NCBI GenBank assembly: GCA_007129355.1
Contig: SKVR01000178.1
Location: 1 to 34,653 of the forward strand
From: Bacteroidales bacterium
GTDB lineage: Bacteria > Bacteroidota > Bacteroidia > Bacteroidales > UBA7960
Direction of reading: 5' to 3'
Length of the DNA: 34,653 bases
Positions 25,108 to 32,096 of this stretch are shown in pieces (position 1 is the first letter of the stretch; each line of letters opens with the position of its first letter). The notes under the pieces were generated by a model. That model did not search any database. It was not told the DNA's origin and was given only the letters and a program-made list of their open reading frames with translations. A program made the position numbers and the translations under genes.

Positions 25108-25980
25108 ATGATCAACACAGAAAAATTTATTTATAAAACGGGTAATGGACTTTCTGAGTTTAGCCCATCGTTTTCCGAAAAATATACTTCAAAAAAAGAC
25201 ACACAGGAAGAATTTCAGGATCAAATAGCAATTTTGCGAAAGCTCCAGAGCATGTTATATGCTCAGGGCAGGCATGGTATTCTGATTATCCTGCAGGCTA
25301 TGGATGCCGGAGGAAAGGATGGGGTTATCAAGCATGTAATGTCAGGTGTAAATCCACAGGGTTGCCAGGTGAAAAGCTTTAAAGCCCCTTCCGGGGAAGA
25401 GCTTGCGCACGATTTTATGTGGCGCTGCTTTAAAGCTATGCCCGAAAGGGGCAATATTGGTATTTTTAATCGCTCATATTATGAGGAAGTGCTTATTGCC
25501 AAAATTCATCCCCGGCTACTGGTCAATCAAAATCTTCCGTTTTATCATAGTAAACTTCATAAAGACCCTGGTTTTTGGAATACCCGGTATCAGGATATTG
25601 TAAATATCGAAAAGTATTTTGTGCATAACGGTTATATGGTGTTGAAGTTTTTTCTTAATATTTCGCATGAAGAACAAAAACAGCGCTTTCTCTCGCGAAT
25701 CGATAATGCAGCAAAAAACTGGAAATTTCTAATGAGCGATGTAGATGAACGGCAACATTGGGATGAATACCGGCAGGCTTACGGCGACATGCTGGAAAAT
25801 ACTTCGCATGAACTTGCCCCATGGTATGTAATACCTGCTGATAAAAAATGGTATATGCGACTGGTAATAAGCAAAATAATTGTTGATAAACTAGAGCAAT
25901 TAAATCTCAGCTACCCGAAAGTCAATGAAAAACATATGCAGGATATAATAAATGCCAGGGAGATTTTAAAGAGCGAATGA
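25108..25980 (+). CDS. ppk2: Polyphosphate kinase 2 family protein
   Basis: PPK2 enzymes transfer phosphate between inorganic polyphosphate and nucleotides, mostly making ADP or ATP from AMP or ADP, or GTP from GDP. The 290-residue single-domain protein has the Walker A loop AMDAGGKDG (64-72), a KSFKAPSGEELAHDFMWR lid-side block (89-106) and the NRSYYEEVLI Walker B region (121-130). WYVIPADKKWYMRL in the last quarter is also conserved in the family. No signal peptide is present, so it acts in the cytoplasm. The class (I, II or III) and hence the preferred nucleotide are not decided from the motifs I can see. A short 33-base gap suggests joint transcription with the AsmA-like gene, though no functional link is evident. 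Confidence 0.93.
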   Translation: MINTEKFIYKTGNGLSEFSPSFSEKYTSKKDTQEEFQDQIAILRKLQSMLYAQGRHGILIILQAMDAGGKDGVIKHVMSGVNPQGCQVKSFKAPSGEELAHDFMWRCFKAMPERGNIGIFNRSYYEEVLIAKIHPRLLVNQNLPFYHSKLHKDPGFWNTRYQDIVNIEKYFVHNGYMVLKFFLNISHEEQKQRFLSRIDNAAKNWKFLMSDVDERQHWDEYRQAYGDMLENTSHELAPWYVIPADKKWYMRLVISKIIVDKLEQLNLSYPKVNEKHMQDIINAREILKSE

Positions 25981-26158
25981 TGTTAATTGTGTTTTTGTAT
26001 GGGGCTTAATTATTTTATAATATTGAAGATGGAAGTCCGTTAAAAAATAGTGGAGTTTTAGAAACTGTAAATCATTAAAAATTAAAAACCGGAACCAGAC
26101 TGTTTACGGATATAATAATGGAATGGTCATGTACCCATCAAATTAAAATATTTTAACC

Positions 26159-27670
26159 TTGGATATTTATAGTAAAAAGCAACGCTGGAAAATATATTTG
26201 ATTGGATTTGCTGCTGCCATAGTGGGTCTCTCGCTCTATTATACCAATATAATTGTAAATAAAATTGCAGAGGATGAGCTTCAGAAAGTTCGTATATGGG
26301 CCGATGCTGTGCAAAACAGGGCCAATCTCGTTCTTGTAACGGAGCAGTTTTTTGAAGAAATGAGAACAGAAGACCGCAAAAGGGTTACTTTGTGGGCAGA
26401 AGCTACGCGCAGGTTTATTGAAGACGAGGGTGGCGACATTTCCTTTTATGCCAGAATAATTGTAGAAAATACTACTATTCCGGTTTTGCTTGTCAATTCT
26501 CAGAATATTATTGTTTCTCACCTGAATCTGACTGAAACCGGAGATGATTCCGTTCAGCTTGAAGGTCAGCCATTCGAAGGTGAAATCAGAGAACAGTTTT
26601 CAGTATATGATCCGATTCCCATTGCATACGAGGGCCAGGTTGATTACCTGTATTACCAGGATTCATGGCTTTTTACCAATATGCGTAAGGTAATGGACGA
26701 TCTGATCGATTCTTTTCTCAGTGAGGTGGTCATCAACTCTGCCAACGTTCCGGTAATCATTACTGATAGTGCAAAAAACCGCATTATTGCTGCAGGTAAT
26801 ATAGGTAACGGCGATTTGAATGACAGCACCTACGTGCAGCAGACTATCAATGCCATGGCCGACAGAAACCAGCCCTTGATTATAGAACTTCCCTTGCACG
26901 GAACTTGTCATGTATTTTATACACACTCTTTTCTCCTTACACAATTAAGATATTATCCGGTAGCACAGTTTCTGGCAATTGGAATTTTTCTTCTTGTAGC
27001 ATATATCCTTTTCAGTACTGCAAGAAACGCTGAGCAAAACCAGGTTTGGGTCGGAATGTCAAAAGAAACAGCACACCAGTTGGGAACGCCTATTTCATCA
27101 TTGATTGCATGGGTGGAATTGTTAAAAGGACAAGGTGTTGACGAAACTACCATCAAAGAAATACAGAAAGATGTAGGGCGATTGGAAAATATTACCGAAA
27201 GATTCTCTAAAATCGGATCCGCGCCAAAACTTACTCCTTATCCTATTGCAGACGCTGTAAGAGAGAGTATTGAATACATGAAAACCCGTACCACAAAAAA
27301 GGTGAAGTTTTCTTTAAATGATCATACGGAAGAAAATCCTGCAATACCATTGAATCTCAATCTTTTTGGCTGGGTACTTGAAAATATCTGCAAAAATGCC
27401 GTGGATGCAATGTCGGGAAATGGTGCCATAACGGTTGATATTTATAAAAATACACGAAAAGCATACATTGATATTACTGATACCGGTAAGGGCATCCCCA
27501 AGGGTAAACACAAGGATATTTTCCAACCTGGTTACACCAGCAAAAAACGCGGATGGGGTCTGGGGCTCTCGCTCAGCAAGCGTATCATCGAAAATTACCA
27601 TAAGGGAAAAATTTTCGTTAAATCATCATCACCTGAAGGCACTACCTTCAGAATTGCTCTGAAACGTTAG
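26159..27670 (+). CDS. Membrane sensor histidine kinase (orphan)
   Basis: Of 503 residues, about 11-33 form a first membrane helix, 34-264 an extracytoplasmic sensing region of no recognised family, and 266-286 a second helix. The kinase core follows directly, without a clear HAMP domain: phosphoacceptor His306 in SKETAHQLGTPISSL, N-box around Asn409/Asn413 (LENICKNAVDAM), G1 DTGKGIP at 441-447 and G2 GWGLGLS at 465-471. It should autophosphorylate and pass phosphate to a response regulator, but none is encoded in this window. Translation appears to begin at TTG 26159, which gives a short lead MDIYSKKQRWK ahead of the first helix; no ATG upstream is in frame. The 178 bases before it hold no clear promoter. 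Confidence 0.93.
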   Translation: MDIYSKKQRWKIYLIGFAAAIVGLSLYYTNIIVNKIAEDELQKVRIWADAVQNRANLVLVTEQFFEEMRTEDRKRVTLWAEATRRFIEDEGGDISFYARIIVENTTIPVLLVNSQNIIVSHLNLTETGDDSVQLEGQPFEGEIREQFSVYDPIPIAYEGQVDYLYYQDSWLFTNMRKVMDDLIDSFLSEVVINSANVPVIITDSAKNRIIAAGNIGNGDLNDSTYVQQTINAMADRNQPLIIELPLHGTCHVFYTHSFLLTQLRYYPVAQFLAIGIFLLVAYILFSTARNAEQNQVWVGMSKETAHQLGTPISSLIAWVELLKGQGVDETTIKEIQKDVGRLENITERFSKIGSAPKLTPYPIADAVRESIEYMKTRTTKKVKFSLNDHTEENPAIPLNLNLFGWVLENICKNAVDAMSGNGAITVDIYKNTRKAYIDITDTGKGIPKGKHKDIFQPGYTSKKRGWGLGLSLSKRIIENYHKGKIFVKSSSPEGTTFRIALKR

Positions 27671-27720: not shown

Positions 27721-27778
27721 TCAACATCATACATTTGACCTCACACATCTGACATCTCTTCTATCTCATTATTATTCT

Positions 27779-27786
27779 TATTTTTG
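27779..27786 (+). promoter_or_regulatory. Candidate -7 element of the LolA-YidD-TPR operon
   Basis: TATTTTTG matches TAnnTTTG exactly and lies 22 bases before the ATG at 27809, so transcription would begin about 16 bases before the start codon. There is no exact TTG at -33. Confidence 0.6.
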
Positions 27787-27808: not shown

Positions 27809-28531
27809 ATGACTATGTTTATTCGTAAAATCTTTCCAATGCCAGCCATCCCTATATTTTTATTTTTTTTACTGGTATCATTTGATAACATGTCGGTTGA
27901 CAGGATTATGATGCACATGGAAAGTCAAAGCCTGCACAGGGGAAAAGTAGTTAAGGTTGAAGCAGAATTATTTTTTCATGCAGTTGATGGAAGAATGATA
28001 ACCCGCTATGTTCAGCCATCCCATCAGGTTATGATAGCCAATAATAAAGGTGAAGTTGCTCTATACAATGAAAGAGAAAATACGGTTGTTTACAGGCAGG
28101 GGCATGAATACTCCACTGAGTCGGGAATGATCCAGTTCTTTTTACAAGGAAAGACGCGGGATTTGGGTTTGTCTGATTTTGGATTTCAGCAAATGAGCAC
28201 TGAGTTTAATGATAATCTTGTTATTACAGAGTGGTTTCCCCCGGCATCGCTGTATCATTTATATAACAGGATTGAACTGGTGCATGAAGATTTCATGCCC
28301 ATATATGCTGCGTATTATGATGCTACCCGAAAACTTGTCAAAAAAGTTTATTACTCCGATTTTCAGTATTTTGGCGATGTGTATCTTCCGGGCCTTGTAA
28401 CCGAATTCAATTATATCGGTAATGACTCTGTCATAAACAGGATCAGGTTTTCGGATATAAGAATAAATTATCAGGCACTAAGTCCCTGGTTTAATTTTCA
28501 AATTCCTTCTGATGCCAAACTTCGCGATTAA
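27809..28531 (+). CDS. LolA-like periplasmic protein
   Basis: The 240-residue protein starts with a hydrophobic signal segment (MPAIPIFLFFLLVSFDN, about 11-27) and continues with the alternating-strand pattern of the LolA/LolB fold: KVVKVEAELFFHAVDGRMITRYVQP, then a helix-like segment, AAYYDATRKLVKKVYYSDFQYFGDVYLPGLVTEFN and IRFSDIRINYQALSPWFNFQIPSDAKL at the end. The final phrase, strand plus 'WFNFQIPSDAKL', is typical of LolA-like carriers (F-x-IPxxAxl). LolA carries lipoproteins across the periplasm; related proteins also handle lipids or glycolipids. Whether this is the genuine LolA is doubtful given its operon. ATG 27815, two codons in, is an alternative start. It overlaps the YidD gene by 20 bases. 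Confidence 0.7.
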   Translation: MTMFIRKIFPMPAIPIFLFFLLVSFDNMSVDRIMMHMESQSLHRGKVVKVEAELFFHAVDGRMITRYVQPSHQVMIANNKGEVALYNERENTVVYRQGHEYSTESGMIQFFLQGKTRDLGLSDFGFQQMSTEFNDNLVITEWFPPASLYHLYNRIELVHEDFMPIYAAYYDATRKLVKKVYYSDFQYFGDVYLPGLVTEFNYIGNDSVINRIRFSDIRINYQALSPWFNFQIPSDAKLRD

Positions 28532-28979
28532 AATTGTTTTCCTTTTTTTTGTGATGATTTTCACAAATACTTTTTCAGCGGCAGCTCCGCCTCGATCAGA
28601 TTTTGAAATGCTGCAGTCAAAAGAAGTTAATGAGAATGCGCATATTCATAGTCATGATATTCGTTTTATGCGCAGTCGTTCGGAGAATGTACTTATTCGA
28701 TATAATCCTGTAAGTCTGGTATTTGGCGGGTTAATGTATACTTATCAGCGAATTATTTCACCGCAGTTACCTTCCGAATGTTTATACGTGCACAACTGTT
28801 CAAACTATAGTAAAGATCTGTTTTTCGAATACGGCTTGTTAAAAGGTTTGTTCACTACATCCGACCGGTTGTTGCGTTGCAATCGATTGTCTGCACTGGA
28901 TATCCATCCATTGATGATTGATCAGAACAGTGGGAAAGTAATGGAGTCAATTGATATTTACAAATCAGATGAAAGATGA
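28512..28979 (+). CDS. YidD-family protein with an N-terminal signal peptide
   Basis: Residues 64-135 match the YidD (haemolytic) family: YNPVSLVFGGLMYTYQRIISPQLPSECLYVHNCSNYS and then EYGLLKGLFTTSDRLLRCN. All three conserved cysteines are there (90, 96, 123). YidD in E. coli is an 85-residue inner-face protein that helps YidC insertion and is encoded beside rnpA and yidC. Here the protein has 155 residues: a signal peptide (about 1-25, ending FSAAA-PP) and some 40 linker residues precede the domain. The usual Pro before the second Cys is Asn. If the signal works, the domain lies in the periplasm, on the opposite side from E. coli YidD. It overlaps both neighbours (20 and 4 bases). Confidence 0.85.
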   Translation: MPNFAIKIVFLFFVMIFTNTFSAAAPPRSDFEMLQSKEVNENAHIHSHDIRFMRSRSENVLIRYNPVSLVFGGLMYTYQRIISPQLPSECLYVHNCSNYSKDLFFEYGLLKGLFTTSDRLLRCNRLSALDIHPLMIDQNSGKVMESIDIYKSDER

Positions 28980-29848
28980 GCCATAACAGAAAAAGCATCT
29001 TTCTTTTTGCCTTTTTTATTCTGAGCTTTTCTTCTAAGATAGCAGCGCAGCAGAATGTTTCCTCCGAGCTGAGATTCATCAATCATATGCTTGGCAGGCA
29101 AAATTACGATGAAGCGCTTTTTCTGCTCGAAAACCTGCAAACCAAAACGTTGAGTCAGAAAGATTCAGTTAATTATCTGCTTGGCTGGACACTTTATGGC
29201 CGTAAAGAACTTAATGCTTCGGCATATTATCTTTCTCTGGTAACCGAAGACAGTCCATGGTTTGAAAAATCAAGGTTCTTTGCAGCTTATAATCAAGCTT
29301 ATTTGCGTGAAACAAATTATTCACGGGAACTTCTTGGTTTTTTTAATGAAAATTCATCGGATCAGGTAGTTTTTATGAAGAATTTTCAGCTTGCTGGCAT
29401 GGCTCTGCTGGAAAGGGAAATGGATGAATTTGAGCATCATGCTAAAAAATTTACCGGAAATTTCAGTTTCACTGCAACAGAAGAAAGAAAACTGAATGAA
29501 TATTATAACCAGATTTCTGAAATGCCATACAGATCTCCTTTTGTTGCAGGAATCATGTCGGCAGCAGTGCCCGGACTGGGGCGAATTTATGCCGGAAAAA
29601 CTGCCGAAGGTATTTCCAGCCTTTTATATGTGGGGGCTTTGCTTGCCACCTCCTGGGATTTATATAACAGATTAGGTGGAAATAATCCGTTTTTTATCAT
29701 TTCAGCCAGCCTGTCCGGAATTTTTTATGTCGGAAACATTTGGGGGAGTGCTGTGGCTGTAAACAGAGTTCAAAGAGAATTTAATTATGAAATGGATCAA
29801 CGCATTTTGCTTGATATGCATATTCCTTTGCGTAAGCTTTTTCCCTGA
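28976..29848 (+). CDS. TPR-like periplasmic protein with C-terminal membrane hairpin (paralogue A)
   Basis: I do not recognise a named family for the whole protein. The 290 residues show a signal peptide (about 1-24, ending KIAA-QQ), a helical-repeat part at about 30-180 (NYDEALFLLENL, ELNASAYYLSLV, TPR-like), and a hydrophobic C-terminal module at 186-262. This module starts SPFVAGIMSAAVPGLGRIYAGKTAEG, with PGLGRIYAG at 199-207, and resembles the TM2/DUF5683 type (PGxGxxYxG, then two or three membrane segments). The next gene encodes the same layout, so the two are tandem paralogues. The gene starts on the ATGA shared with the YidD gene, and its last 62 bases overlap the next gene. An envelope location is likely; function unknown. 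Confidence 0.82.
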   Translation: MSHNRKSIFLFAFFILSFSSKIAAQQNVSSELRFINHMLGRQNYDEALFLLENLQTKTLSQKDSVNYLLGWTLYGRKELNASAYYLSLVTEDSPWFEKSRFFAAYNQAYLRETNYSRELLGFFNENSSDQVVFMKNFQLAGMALLEREMDEFEHHAKKFTGNFSFTATEERKLNEYYNQISEMPYRSPFVAGIMSAAVPGLGRIYAGKTAEGISSLLYVGALLATSWDLYNRLGGNNPFFIISASLSGIFYVGNIWGSAVAVNRVQREFNYEMDQRILLDMHIPLRKLFP

Positions 29849-30680
29849 TTCAGCTTATGCACAGAAAGATAGCAATGCTTTTCTTGAGGAGGGCCGCGAC
29901 CTTTTCAGGCAGGGCTATTACTTTGAGGCAGGAATTGCATTTGAAAGGGCTTATTTTTTTACCACTGATAACAGAACCAGGCTGGAAGCTAATCTGGAAA
30001 GGGCCGAGGCTCTCAAGCAAACAGGCGAGTATCTTAAAGCCCGCAACGATTTACAAAGAACTCTGCATCTGAGACAATTTCCTGAACTACATTTTCAATT
30101 ATTGTACGAACTGGCTTTTTGTGAATATATGCTGGGAAATTATTCCAATGCTTCAGGTAGTTTGGCGCAACTCAAACATTTTTATCCCGACGAATATTTC
30201 TCAGAAGAAATCCTTACGCTGCATGCTTTAGCTGGTGTTATGGCTGAAGACATCTCGCTGGCGCAGGAAAAAACAATTGAATTAATAATGTACCGGAATA
30301 ATGAGCCATATATAACGGATAGCTTGATTGCAAGATCAATGGTTTTGTTTTGTGAATGCTCTGCACCCATTTTAAGATCTGAGAAGACAGCCAGCCGTTT
30401 TTCTACGTTTATTCCCGGAGCGGGTCATTTTTATGCAGGTTATCCAGGAAAAGGATTACTGAATGCCGGCTCACAACTGGCATCACTCGGACTGGCAGCA
30501 TTTATGGGGTTGAATAATTTTTATGTCAGTGGTTTTGTAGTGGGTCTGGGCATGTTTCAATCCTTCTATTTCGGGGGTGTCAGACAAGCTGCTTTTCTTG
30601 CAGAGCAAAGAAATCTTAATGAGATGGCCGTATTTAAAGAACTGCTGAAGGAATTTATTCTGAGTTTGAATCATGATTAG
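29787..30680 (+). CDS. TPR-like periplasmic protein with C-terminal membrane hairpin (paralogue B)
   Basis: The 297-residue protein repeats the layout of the gene before it. A signal peptide (about 1-25, ending SAYA-QK) leads into TPR-like helices at about 28-165 (FLEEGRDLFRQGYYFEAGIAFERAYF, EALKQTGEYLKARNDLQ, LAFCEYMLGNYSNASGSLAQL). A hydrophobic module at 203-266 follows, with PGAGHFYAG at 210-218, GKGLLNAG and then FYFGGVRQAA. The similarity to paralogue A is strongest in this module. The signal peptide is encoded entirely inside the 62-base overlap with paralogue A. The signal sequence only exists from this ATG, which argues for the start despite the overlap. It overlaps the next gene by eight bases. 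Function unknown; an envelope scaffold or assembly role is a guess. Confidence 0.82.
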   Translation: MKWINAFCLICIFLCVSFFPDSAYAQKDSNAFLEEGRDLFRQGYYFEAGIAFERAYFFTTDNRTRLEANLERAEALKQTGEYLKARNDLQRTLHLRQFPELHFQLLYELAFCEYMLGNYSNASGSLAQLKHFYPDEYFSEEILTLHALAGVMAEDISLAQEKTIELIMYRNNEPYITDSLIARSMVLFCECSAPILRSEKTASRFSTFIPGAGHFYAGYPGKGLLNAGSQLASLGLAAFMGLNNFYVSGFVVGLGMFQSFYFGGVRQAAFLAEQRNLNEMAVFKELLKEFILSLNHD

Positions 30681-31578
30681 AAAAATTACAACGGTTATTA
30701 TTTATCGAAGTTTGATCATCTGGTTGTTCATTCTGTTCAGGGTGTCATTGTTAACGGCATCTGGCCTTACCTCTCTTTCTCATGAAACCATGTTGGCTCT
30801 TTACGATTTCAGGTTTCATCATGCAGATTCATTGATTCATATTATGGAAGAAACTTCTACGGATCATTATCTTCCCCATCTGACAAGAGCAAACTATTAC
30901 TGGTGGAGAATCATAAGTGAAAATCCCGGATTAGATCTACAGCAATTTTATATTTCCAATTTGAATAATGCAGAAAATATCATCAGGCAAATGGTAAAAG
31001 ATAAGCAATATGACTATGCCGATGTTTTTCACTTTATTAATCTTTATGCTCTCAGAGCCCGGCTTGACCTGATCAATGGCGAATACACCAAAGCCCTGAT
31101 GCACATGAAAAACTGCGTGGATTTTATCGGGCTAGCACTTGGGAGAGAACAAATACATGAAAATTTTTATCTGACTTCTGGTCTCTACAATTATATGACC
31201 GAATACGGCAGTAGAAGGTACCCCTTCTTTCGTCTTTATATATTGATGTATCCCAAAGGGAATATGAAACTTGGAATTAGCCAGCTTGAAACTGCAGCCA
31301 AAAGCCAGGATTTGGTATTACAAACCGAAGCCCGGTATTTCCTTATGAAAATATTTCTTGAGCTTGAACAGGACCATCAAAAAGCTTTGGAGCATGCAGG
31401 ATGGTTAGCAACAAAATATCCCGGGAATCTTATTTATCTTTACCATTATCATGAACTTCTTTCTGTAAACAATCAGGAAGCAAAGGCAAATGCAATCAGG
31501 AAGTTATATTTTGAACGAATTAAAAGTAATACACACCTGAGTTCGGTTCAGCGGCAATATCTGGAAGGGTTGTTATAA
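30673..31578 (+). CDS. Helical-repeat (TPR-like) exported protein
   Basis: This 301-residue protein has a hydrophobic N-terminal segment (about 9-29, IIYRSLIIWLFILFRVSLLTA) that is either a signal peptide or an anchor. The rest is helical with TPR-like pairs: HETMLALYDFRFHHADSLIHIMEE, LINGEYTKALMHMKNCVDFIG, LKIFLELEQDHQKALEHAGWLA style repeats, and LYHYHELLSVNNQEAKANAI. In the middle there is a conserved-looking block with NFYLTSGLYNYM and PKGNMKLGISQLETAA. This GLYNYM/GLxxL pattern I know from several uncharacterised Bacteroidetes TPR proteins. It ends the five-gene unit, with its stop codon inside the terminator hairpin. Function unknown. Confidence 0.8.
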   Translation: MIRKITTVIIYRSLIIWLFILFRVSLLTASGLTSLSHETMLALYDFRFHHADSLIHIMEETSTDHYLPHLTRANYYWWRIISENPGLDLQQFYISNLNNAENIIRQMVKDKQYDYADVFHFINLYALRARLDLINGEYTKALMHMKNCVDFIGLALGREQIHENFYLTSGLYNYMTEYGSRRYPFFRLYILMYPKGNMKLGISQLETAAKSQDLVLQTEARYFLMKIFLELEQDHQKALEHAGWLATKYPGNLIYLYHYHELLSVNNQEAKANAIRKLYFERIKSNTHLSSVQRQYLEGLL

Positions 31579-31614
31579 AAAAAAGCTTTGTGCCCGATGC
31601 ACAAAGCTTTTTTT
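31577..31614. terminator. Bidirectional intrinsic terminator
   Basis: AAAGCTTTGTGC at 31582-31593 pairs perfectly with GCACAAAGCTTT at 31599-31610 around CCGAT. T follows to 31614, and the left side has eight A from 31577, giving a U-tract on the other strand too. It therefore serves both the rightward five-gene unit and the convergent TM2 gene. Confidence 0.92.
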
Positions 31615-31632
31615 AAAAATATGTATTTAAAC

Positions 31633-32049
31633 TTACCACATAAAGAATTTCGGATTATCGATATATTGACTTATGTCATTATTTACCAGTCCGATCAGAA
31701 GCATAATCCAGTCAATGGTTGCAACTATACCACAACCGCCTAAAGTAAGAATATATCCCACAATAGTACCAGTTGATGTACCCAGATAAGCCCTGTGGAT
31801 ACCCAGGTAACCCAGGAACCAGCTTAATAGAAAAGCTACCAGCGGATCCTTGTTTTCTTCAAAAAATGCTTGATTTGCATAACCCATATCTGCCAGAGGA
31901 GCGAGGGGTTCCACGTGGTTGAAATCTACTAATTCTGCCCTGGCAAACAAATCGTCAATTGCTAAATTGTCCAGGTGATAGGATGTACCGGCTTGTGTGG
32001 CAAACACTCCTATGAAAATGATAATCAGTAATGTCAGAAATTTTTTCAT
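31633..32049 (-). CDS. TM2-domain protein with signal peptide
   Basis: The 138-residue protein starts at the ATG at 32049; a TTG two codons upstream is possible but gives no better signal. Residues 1-20 (MKKFLTLLIIIFIGVFATQA) are a signal peptide. A polar part of about 45 residues follows, and then a TM2 module at about 67-125: DPLVAFLLSWFLGYLGIHRAYLG, a short turn, GTIVGYILTLGGCGIVATIDWIMLLIGLV. TM2 modules form two-helix hairpins and are common in Bacteroidetes, with no agreed role. It is the third protein within 4 kb having such a hairpin, after the two paralogues on the other strand. A perfectly spaced promoter lies just upstream. Confidence 0.85.
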   Translation of the reverse strand: MKKFLTLLIIIFIGVFATQAGTSYHLDNLAIDDLFARAELVDFNHVEPLAPLADMGYANQAFFEENKDPLVAFLLSWFLGYLGIHRAYLGTSTGTIVGYILTLGGCGIVATIDWIMLLIGLVNNDISQYIDNPKFFMW

Positions 32050-32096
32050 AAGCAATAGTTTTTGTTAATTAATACTAATTATTTAAGAAACATCTA

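Follow-up and report, generated by a model that had tools for sequence, protein, structure and literature searches.

A conserved gene module of Bacteroidota joining an exported-type YidD paralogue to paired TPR-hairpin proteins and, in part of its range, a predicted LolA-fold protein

Four neighboring genes of a Bacteroidales bacterium, called A, B, C, and D here, form a real module whose products work together, a conclusion well supported by the recurrence of their order in many genomes and by their co-inheritance even where they are dispersed. Each part belongs to a known family or is related to one: a protein of predicted LolA/LolB fold (A), an exported-type YidD protein (B), and two paralogous proteins with tetratricopeptide (TPR) repeats and a membrane hairpin (C and D). 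The assembly corresponds to no known system and is an exported YidD with fixed partners. The genes lie in a window of 34,653 nucleotides, the whole of the DNA stretch analyzed (contig SKVR01000178.1 of assembly GCA_007129355.1), with the following features:

27730-27786, forward strand: candidate promoter stretch holding the element TAnnTTTG twice (27730-27737 and 27779-27786), from alignment with loci L032, L033, and L034
27809-28531, forward strand: gene A, putatively exported protein of predicted LolA/LolB-type fold, 240 aa (PF17131 E 0.0059, below cut-off; AlphaFold pLDDT 80.4)
28512-28979, forward strand: gene B, YidD-domain protein, 155 aa (PF01809 1.9e-14; TIGR00278 above cut-off)
28976-29848, forward strand: gene C, export-type N-terminus, TPR-like helices, half-helix with PGLG turn and two membrane helices (AlphaFold pLDDT 89.8; C/D alignment)
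29787-30680, forward strand: gene D, paralogue of C (TPR_2 1.8e-4, below cut-off; C/D alignment)
30673-31578, forward strand: gene E, helical protein with export-type N-terminus, an optional companion (no Pfam family; TPR_19 weak in 2 of 12 relatives)
31578-31614, forward strand: stem-loop terminator separating E from the convergent gene W (16-pair stem; 31575-31625 folds at -20.2 kcal/mol, z -8.1)
31633-32055, reverse strand: gene W, TM2-domain protein with export-type N-terminus (PF05154 49.6 bits, cut-off 27.9)

The original prediction, made from the sequence of this locus, described five overlapping rightward genes, each with a signal peptide or hydrophobic N-terminus, between a TAnnTTTG promoter element and a strong terminator. 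Most of this description stands: all five reading frames are present, with overlaps of 20, 4, 62, and 8 bases (the 62-base start of D overlaps the end of C in another frame), export-type N-termini are seen in all five by a home-made hydrophobicity rule, and the folding energy bears out a strong terminator, a stem-loop that is unlisted by a consensus terminator scan. The promoter fared less evenly. The element is present twice (read by eye), and both copies fall within stretches conserved in L032, L033, and L034, with substitutions in L034, but the full TTTG-spacer-TAnnTTTG pattern by itself does not exceed chance (1 found versus 2.27 expected).

Gene B carries the YidD label securely, at 53.6 bits to PF01809 (cut-off 27) and 57.2 bits to TIGR00278 (cut-off 40), as had been proposed. 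Ordinary YidD, the membrane protein insertion efficiency factor, acts on the cytosolic side, where it assists YidC-dependent insertion, and its function is poorly understood. B consists of a hydrophobic export-type segment (residues 1-27), a spacer, and the YidD domain (residues 73-131), with three cysteines at positions 90, 96, and 123. It keeps the core motif CxxxxxCSx[YF] and the conserved R of the family (PF01809, TIGR00278) but is not an ordinary cytosolic YidD, which is short, has no export segment, ends in a PWGGxGYDPV tail, and is encoded beside rnpA; B has an export-type N-terminus, a spacing of 51-81 residues, no PWGG tail, and a location away from rnpA, and it is tied to C/D. The residue ahead of the conserved R is D or E in exported forms (DRLxRC type) and K, R, or N in ordinary copies, where the PWGG/DPVP tail follows. 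By our home-made rule, the first motif cysteine comes 51-81 residues after the export-type segment in 71 of 79 B-family reading frames; exported and canonical forms were sorted by distance to this cysteine, and three B rows lacking the motif were dropped. The source genome also encodes a second YidD of 83 aa (L002, 1474-1725), beside the Ribonuclease_P (rnpA) and HEM4 (hemD) genes. This is the ordinary copy. B found a strong match in 25 of 59 relatives searched, and 23 of these 25 had at least one further YidD match, so B is an additional paralogue. The further match in one relative, G012, belongs to a second cassette. A PDB sequence search with the B profile returned no match.

The description of C and D as two TPR and membrane-hairpin paralogues is confirmed: the proteins align end to end at 15% identity and share a PGxGxxYxG hairpin motif. 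The AlphaFold model of C (15 sequences in the alignment) has helices at 30-182, 188-197, 209-233, and 238-288, which make up an N-terminal segment, TPR-like helices, a half-helix with the PGLG turn, and two predicted membrane helices, the last extending beyond the membrane. Against the PDB this model has no fold match at E ≤ 0.001, with weak TPR matches only, and a PDB sequence search with the C/D profile gave only TPR proteins among the 60 matches listed. A tree of 163 C/D rows, which include 75 pairs, places 74 of the 75 first genes on one side and 74 of the 75 second genes on the other, the exception being G041, where the two genes stand in swapped order around B. The C side has a support of 92 and the D side one of 86 (SH-aLRT only, by a quick method, leaving out L115 and three fused rows of unsure placement), and the root split itself is without support. 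Because first and second genes occupy the two sides of the tree, these sequences suggest a single old duplication whose products have been retained as a pair. In 42 of 77 pairs (counted by hand) D starts 53-77 bases inside C, most often 62, so that one large section of the family has its two reading frames tied to each other; most loci outside the class have a short overlap or none.

Two known groups of proteins come nearest to C and D. The first is the set of TM2, DUF5683, and DUF6677 hairpin families: W is a TM2 protein, C and D carry the PGxGxxYxG motif, and 22 C/D members gave weak matches to DUF5683 in 10, DUF6677 in 5, and TM2 in 3 (E ≤ 1 for TM2). C/D differ in falling below the TM2 and DUF cut-offs (one member was compared with the cut-offs) and in adding a TPR part, periplasmic in our reading. 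C and D of the window are themselves unlisted against TM2 at E ≤ 10, and the C/D profile matches W weakly over 42 columns, at a probability of 4%. The second is YfgM, the TPR protein that acts with PpiD at the Sec translocon. Its structure 8zht gives a weak, non-significant alignment with the TPR part of C (TM 0.68 by the length of the target, E-value 0.18), and we know of no hairpin or YidD partner of YfgM.

The label "LolA-like" for A is upheld by fold and not by sequence. A scores 18.1 bits against LolA (TIGR00547, cut-off 112) and 16.7 bits against LolA_like (PF17131, cut-off 30), and a PDB sequence search with its profile gave nothing better than E 0.067. Its AlphaFold model, from an alignment of 7 sequences, has 90 Foldseek matches at E ≤ 0.001, with LolA and LolB structures among the top ones, and reaches Z ≥ 8 to 94 chains, which places A by predicted structure in the half-barrel fold of the LolA/LolB superfamily. 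The best PDB fold matches are the DUF1329 protein 4z48 (Z 17.3), Porphyromonas gingivalis LolA3 (Z 16.6), and P. gingivalis LolB (Z 15.8), and LolA structures stand at Z of about 9-13 (one at 11.4). The predicted fold of A is closer to LolA3 and DUF1329 than to LolA, and A differs from the LolA, LolB, and LolA3 proteins of Bacteroidota in scoring far under the LolA models and in adjoining YidD and TPR-hairpin genes. LolA3, its near fold relative, has a role of its own according to the accessible part of PMC13103446.

The question posed with the original prediction, whether the five families stay together in other genomes, was put to the test, in part on a sample of 294 genomes of the order other than the source genome. 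C/D occur in at least 66 of these genomes (hits at E ≤ 1.1e-14 covering the hairpin) and a separate exported-type YidD in at least 57 (hits at E ≤ 6.5e-16 whose open frame spans 126 aa or more), both counts read by hand from the matches listed; A occurs in 46. All 57 genomes with the exported YidD also have C/D (Fisher p 1e-51), as do 44 of the 46 with A (Fisher p 3e-33), both tests ignoring shared descent. Among the matches listed, 16 borderline YidD rows (frames of at least 121 aa) comprised 15 with the ordinary tail and one of exported type, in G137, which becomes the 58th genome with an exported YidD and also has C/D. Of the two genomes with A and no C/D, G038 and G050, the first has A followed by a YidD gene truncated at a contig end, so its C/D may be missing from the assembly. 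Conversely, an exported YidD in some form accompanies C/D in 62 of 66 genomes among the matches listed, where none was found in G070, G078, G103, or G200, the C/D gene of G078 lying at a contig end. Across the phylum, C/D hits at E ≤ 1e-16 in at least 43 of 395 genomes (read by hand) indicate that the module is patchy.

Gene order gives the same picture of A, B, C, and D kept together, with E not constant. The 60 regions with the strongest C/D hits (L099-L158, not a random draw) hold 62 C/D clusters, 53 of them tandem pairs, and B adjoins or is fused to 48 of the 53. Among the five tandem pairs that lack B are those of G068, G089, G110, and G213, where A and B adjoin on a contig separate from C and D; in G090, A, B, C, and D lie on four contigs. 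A accompanies 28 clusters of this set, W 14, and E 12, and neither W nor E stands beside a cluster without A. When clusters were picked by B instead (28 of them), A was nearby in 26, W in 23, and E in 15. Loci from families outside the class are mostly B-C-D without A, which is present in L100 and L102. The proposed five-gene system thus has to be redrawn: E is optional, one set of families outside the class lacks A, W was left out, and the fixed core is B, C, and D. Export-type N-termini recur throughout by the home-made hydrophobicity rule, in 51 of 54 A proteins, 149 of 165 C/D proteins, 24 of 25 E proteins, 34 of 35 W proteins, and 4 of 4 fusions.

Gene fusion is a classic sign of physical or functional partnership, and six reading frames carry YidD and a C/D-type protein in a single chain (in G434, G251, G240, G075, G321, and a second locus of G127). 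The fused YidD accounts for four C/D genomes without a separate exported YidD (G075, G240, G251, and G321); in G240 the YidD motif is partly lost, and in G321 the YidD match is weaker (2e-8). The G127 frame of 455 aa joins one YidD domain to two hairpins (by eye).

The interpretation we prefer, held tentatively and somewhat short of probable, is an envelope module of Bacteroidota around the exported YidD paralogue, in which C and D are the scaffold, A is a carrier, and the inner membrane has YidD at its outer face. The module proteins would be exported by Sec, as the home-made rule suggests. The TPR domains of C and D would lie in the periplasm, their C-terminal hairpins anchored in what we assume to be the inner membrane, and the two proteins could form a two-part scaffold that holds the YidD domain at this membrane's outer face, opposite to the side on which ordinary YidD acts. 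There YidD might receive or shield hydrophobic segments of an envelope client, and A, as a lipid- or lipoprotein-binding carrier, might take hydrophobic cargo onward through the periplasm, with W (through its TM2 hairpin) and E as putative accessories in the version that contains A. Since 22 of the 66 C/D genomes among the matches listed have no A, the central step must lie with B, C, and D, lipid carriage cannot be the central task, and A may be a client-specific outlet. The earlier idea, in which the TPR proteins scaffold a periplasmic assembly or delivery system at the inner membrane, is, we infer, compatible with this anatomy. A bolder version, which we regard as rather doubtful, is an undescribed cell-envelope machine in which an obligate C/D heterodimer holds YidD at the outer face of the inner membrane, and which in Bacteroidia passes its hydrophobic clients to a LolA-fold carrier of its own; a single-chain ancestor or derivative of the heterodimer could survive as the YidD-TPR-hairpin fusions. 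If true, this would be a periplasm-facing device for the insertion or extraction of membrane or lipid-anchored proteins.

Other explanations would assign the same genes different work. A might bind a glycolipid or other small lipid in place of lipoproteins, with B, C, and D organizing a site of lipid or pigment synthesis or transfer at the membrane. The greater closeness of A in fold to LolA3 and DUF1329 than to LolA proper points this way, and in the accessible parts of the sources LolA-fold proteins do occur in such settings, as with LolA2 and LolB2 in the Flavobacterium johnsoniae flexirubin operon (PMC11885536), and P. gingivalis LolA3 shows no appreciable pairing with LolB (PMC13103446). 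Yet by eye there is no constant lipid-synthesis neighbor gene among the loci listed, and most fetched loci outside the class have B-C-D without A, which leaves lipid handling an unlikely account of the module. We give somewhat less credence again to the YidD domain having been repurposed, its exported form having no role in insertion and serving as a small domain with cysteines that is structural, binds metal, or perturbs membranes: B of the window has lost the PWGGxGYDPV tail and has D/E in place of K/R/N before the conserved R, and several families outside the class have lost the third cysteine, but the core CxxxxxCSx[YF] and its spacing to the conserved R are retained. The mechanism of ordinary YidD is also too poorly known for a loss of it to be judged.

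It is very unlikely that the N-terminus of B is an uncleaved anchor, or that B stays in the cytosol, merely adding dosage to ordinary YidD and YidC. Some N-terminal segments do lack a clear cleavage motif under the home-made rule; on the other hand, the segment stands 51-81 residues before the domain, unlike in ordinary YidD, and the six fusions join YidD to domains that have their own export segment when unfused. We regard it as highly improbable that unrelated envelope genes stand together by chance in a region that rearranges slowly. The kinase and polyphosphate kinase genes upstream are likewise kept within the family, but A, B, C, and D are co-inherited when dispersed, are found as fusions, and recur in other families with different flanking genes.

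We found no described system of YidD with TPR-hairpin proteins in the open-access literature, and none is described in the accessible parts of PMC13103446, PMC11885536, PMC12419801, and PMC8082313. In the text available for each, YidD is one table entry in PMC8082313, neither YidD nor TPR was found by term search in PMC11885536, and neither YidD nor TM2 was found by term search in the lipocone paper, which mentions LolA-like operons. A widespread exported YidD with fixed partners offers a new handle on the function of the YidD domain, and the module is a concrete candidate for the movement of hydrophobic proteins or lipoproteins in the Bacteroidota envelope, an open question according to the accessible part of PMC13103446.

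Two comparisons concern the wider setting of the locus. As a candidate anti-phage defense system it was rejected, with a PADLOC match in 0 of 6 proteins at E ≤ 0.01. Of 295 genomes of the order, 265 have GldN, which gives a comparison for dependence on the type IX secretion system (T9SS) low power; C/D occur with no GldN match in G189 and G240.

The companion genes differ in character. E has no Pfam or NCBIfam family (the weak TPR_19 matches in two of 12 relatives aside), its profile shows no relation to the C/D profile, and a PDB sequence search with it gave one match at E 0.42; in many cassettes the gene is absent or located elsewhere. W is a TM2 protein by its PF05154 score and was omitted from the earlier five-gene set though a convergent and recurrent neighbor. 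It adjoins 23 of the 28 clusters selected by B and 14 of the 62 selected by C/D, and accompanies the module no less regularly than E.

The 62-base overlap between the two TPR-hairpin paralogue genes, C and D (window 29787-29848), is read in two frames, each of them conserved: in the frame of C it encodes the C-terminal end of the protein, of the IPLRKLF type, and in the frame of D a predicted export segment of the FCLICIFLC type. Some relatives carry two diverged cassettes per genome (loci L050, L058, L132, and L139), and at two of these loci both cassettes lie on one contig, as follows.

Double-cassette stretches
L050 336-6792, two cassettes, tail to tail
L058 3405-10546, two cassettes, tail to tail

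The gene for the helical protein E looks to have been lost recently in one relative's genome, G016, because a remnant with three in-frame stops (contig C47, 103732-103929) adjoins the intact A-B-C-D cassette of L054.

In exported YidD forms from families beyond Bacteroidia (L101, L103, L107, L116, and similar loci), the third cysteine is gone (DRFTRD versus DRLxRC), and the DP motif near the end is retained.

Upstream of the cassette, window 25108-27670 encodes a PPK2-type kinase and a sensor histidine kinase; the kinase gene adjoins the cassette within the family, but not regularly outside it. The convergent neighbouring gene W (window 31633-32055, minus strand) encodes a TM2-domain protein whose C-terminal NPxFFMW is strikingly invariant (13 of 13 aligned relatives).
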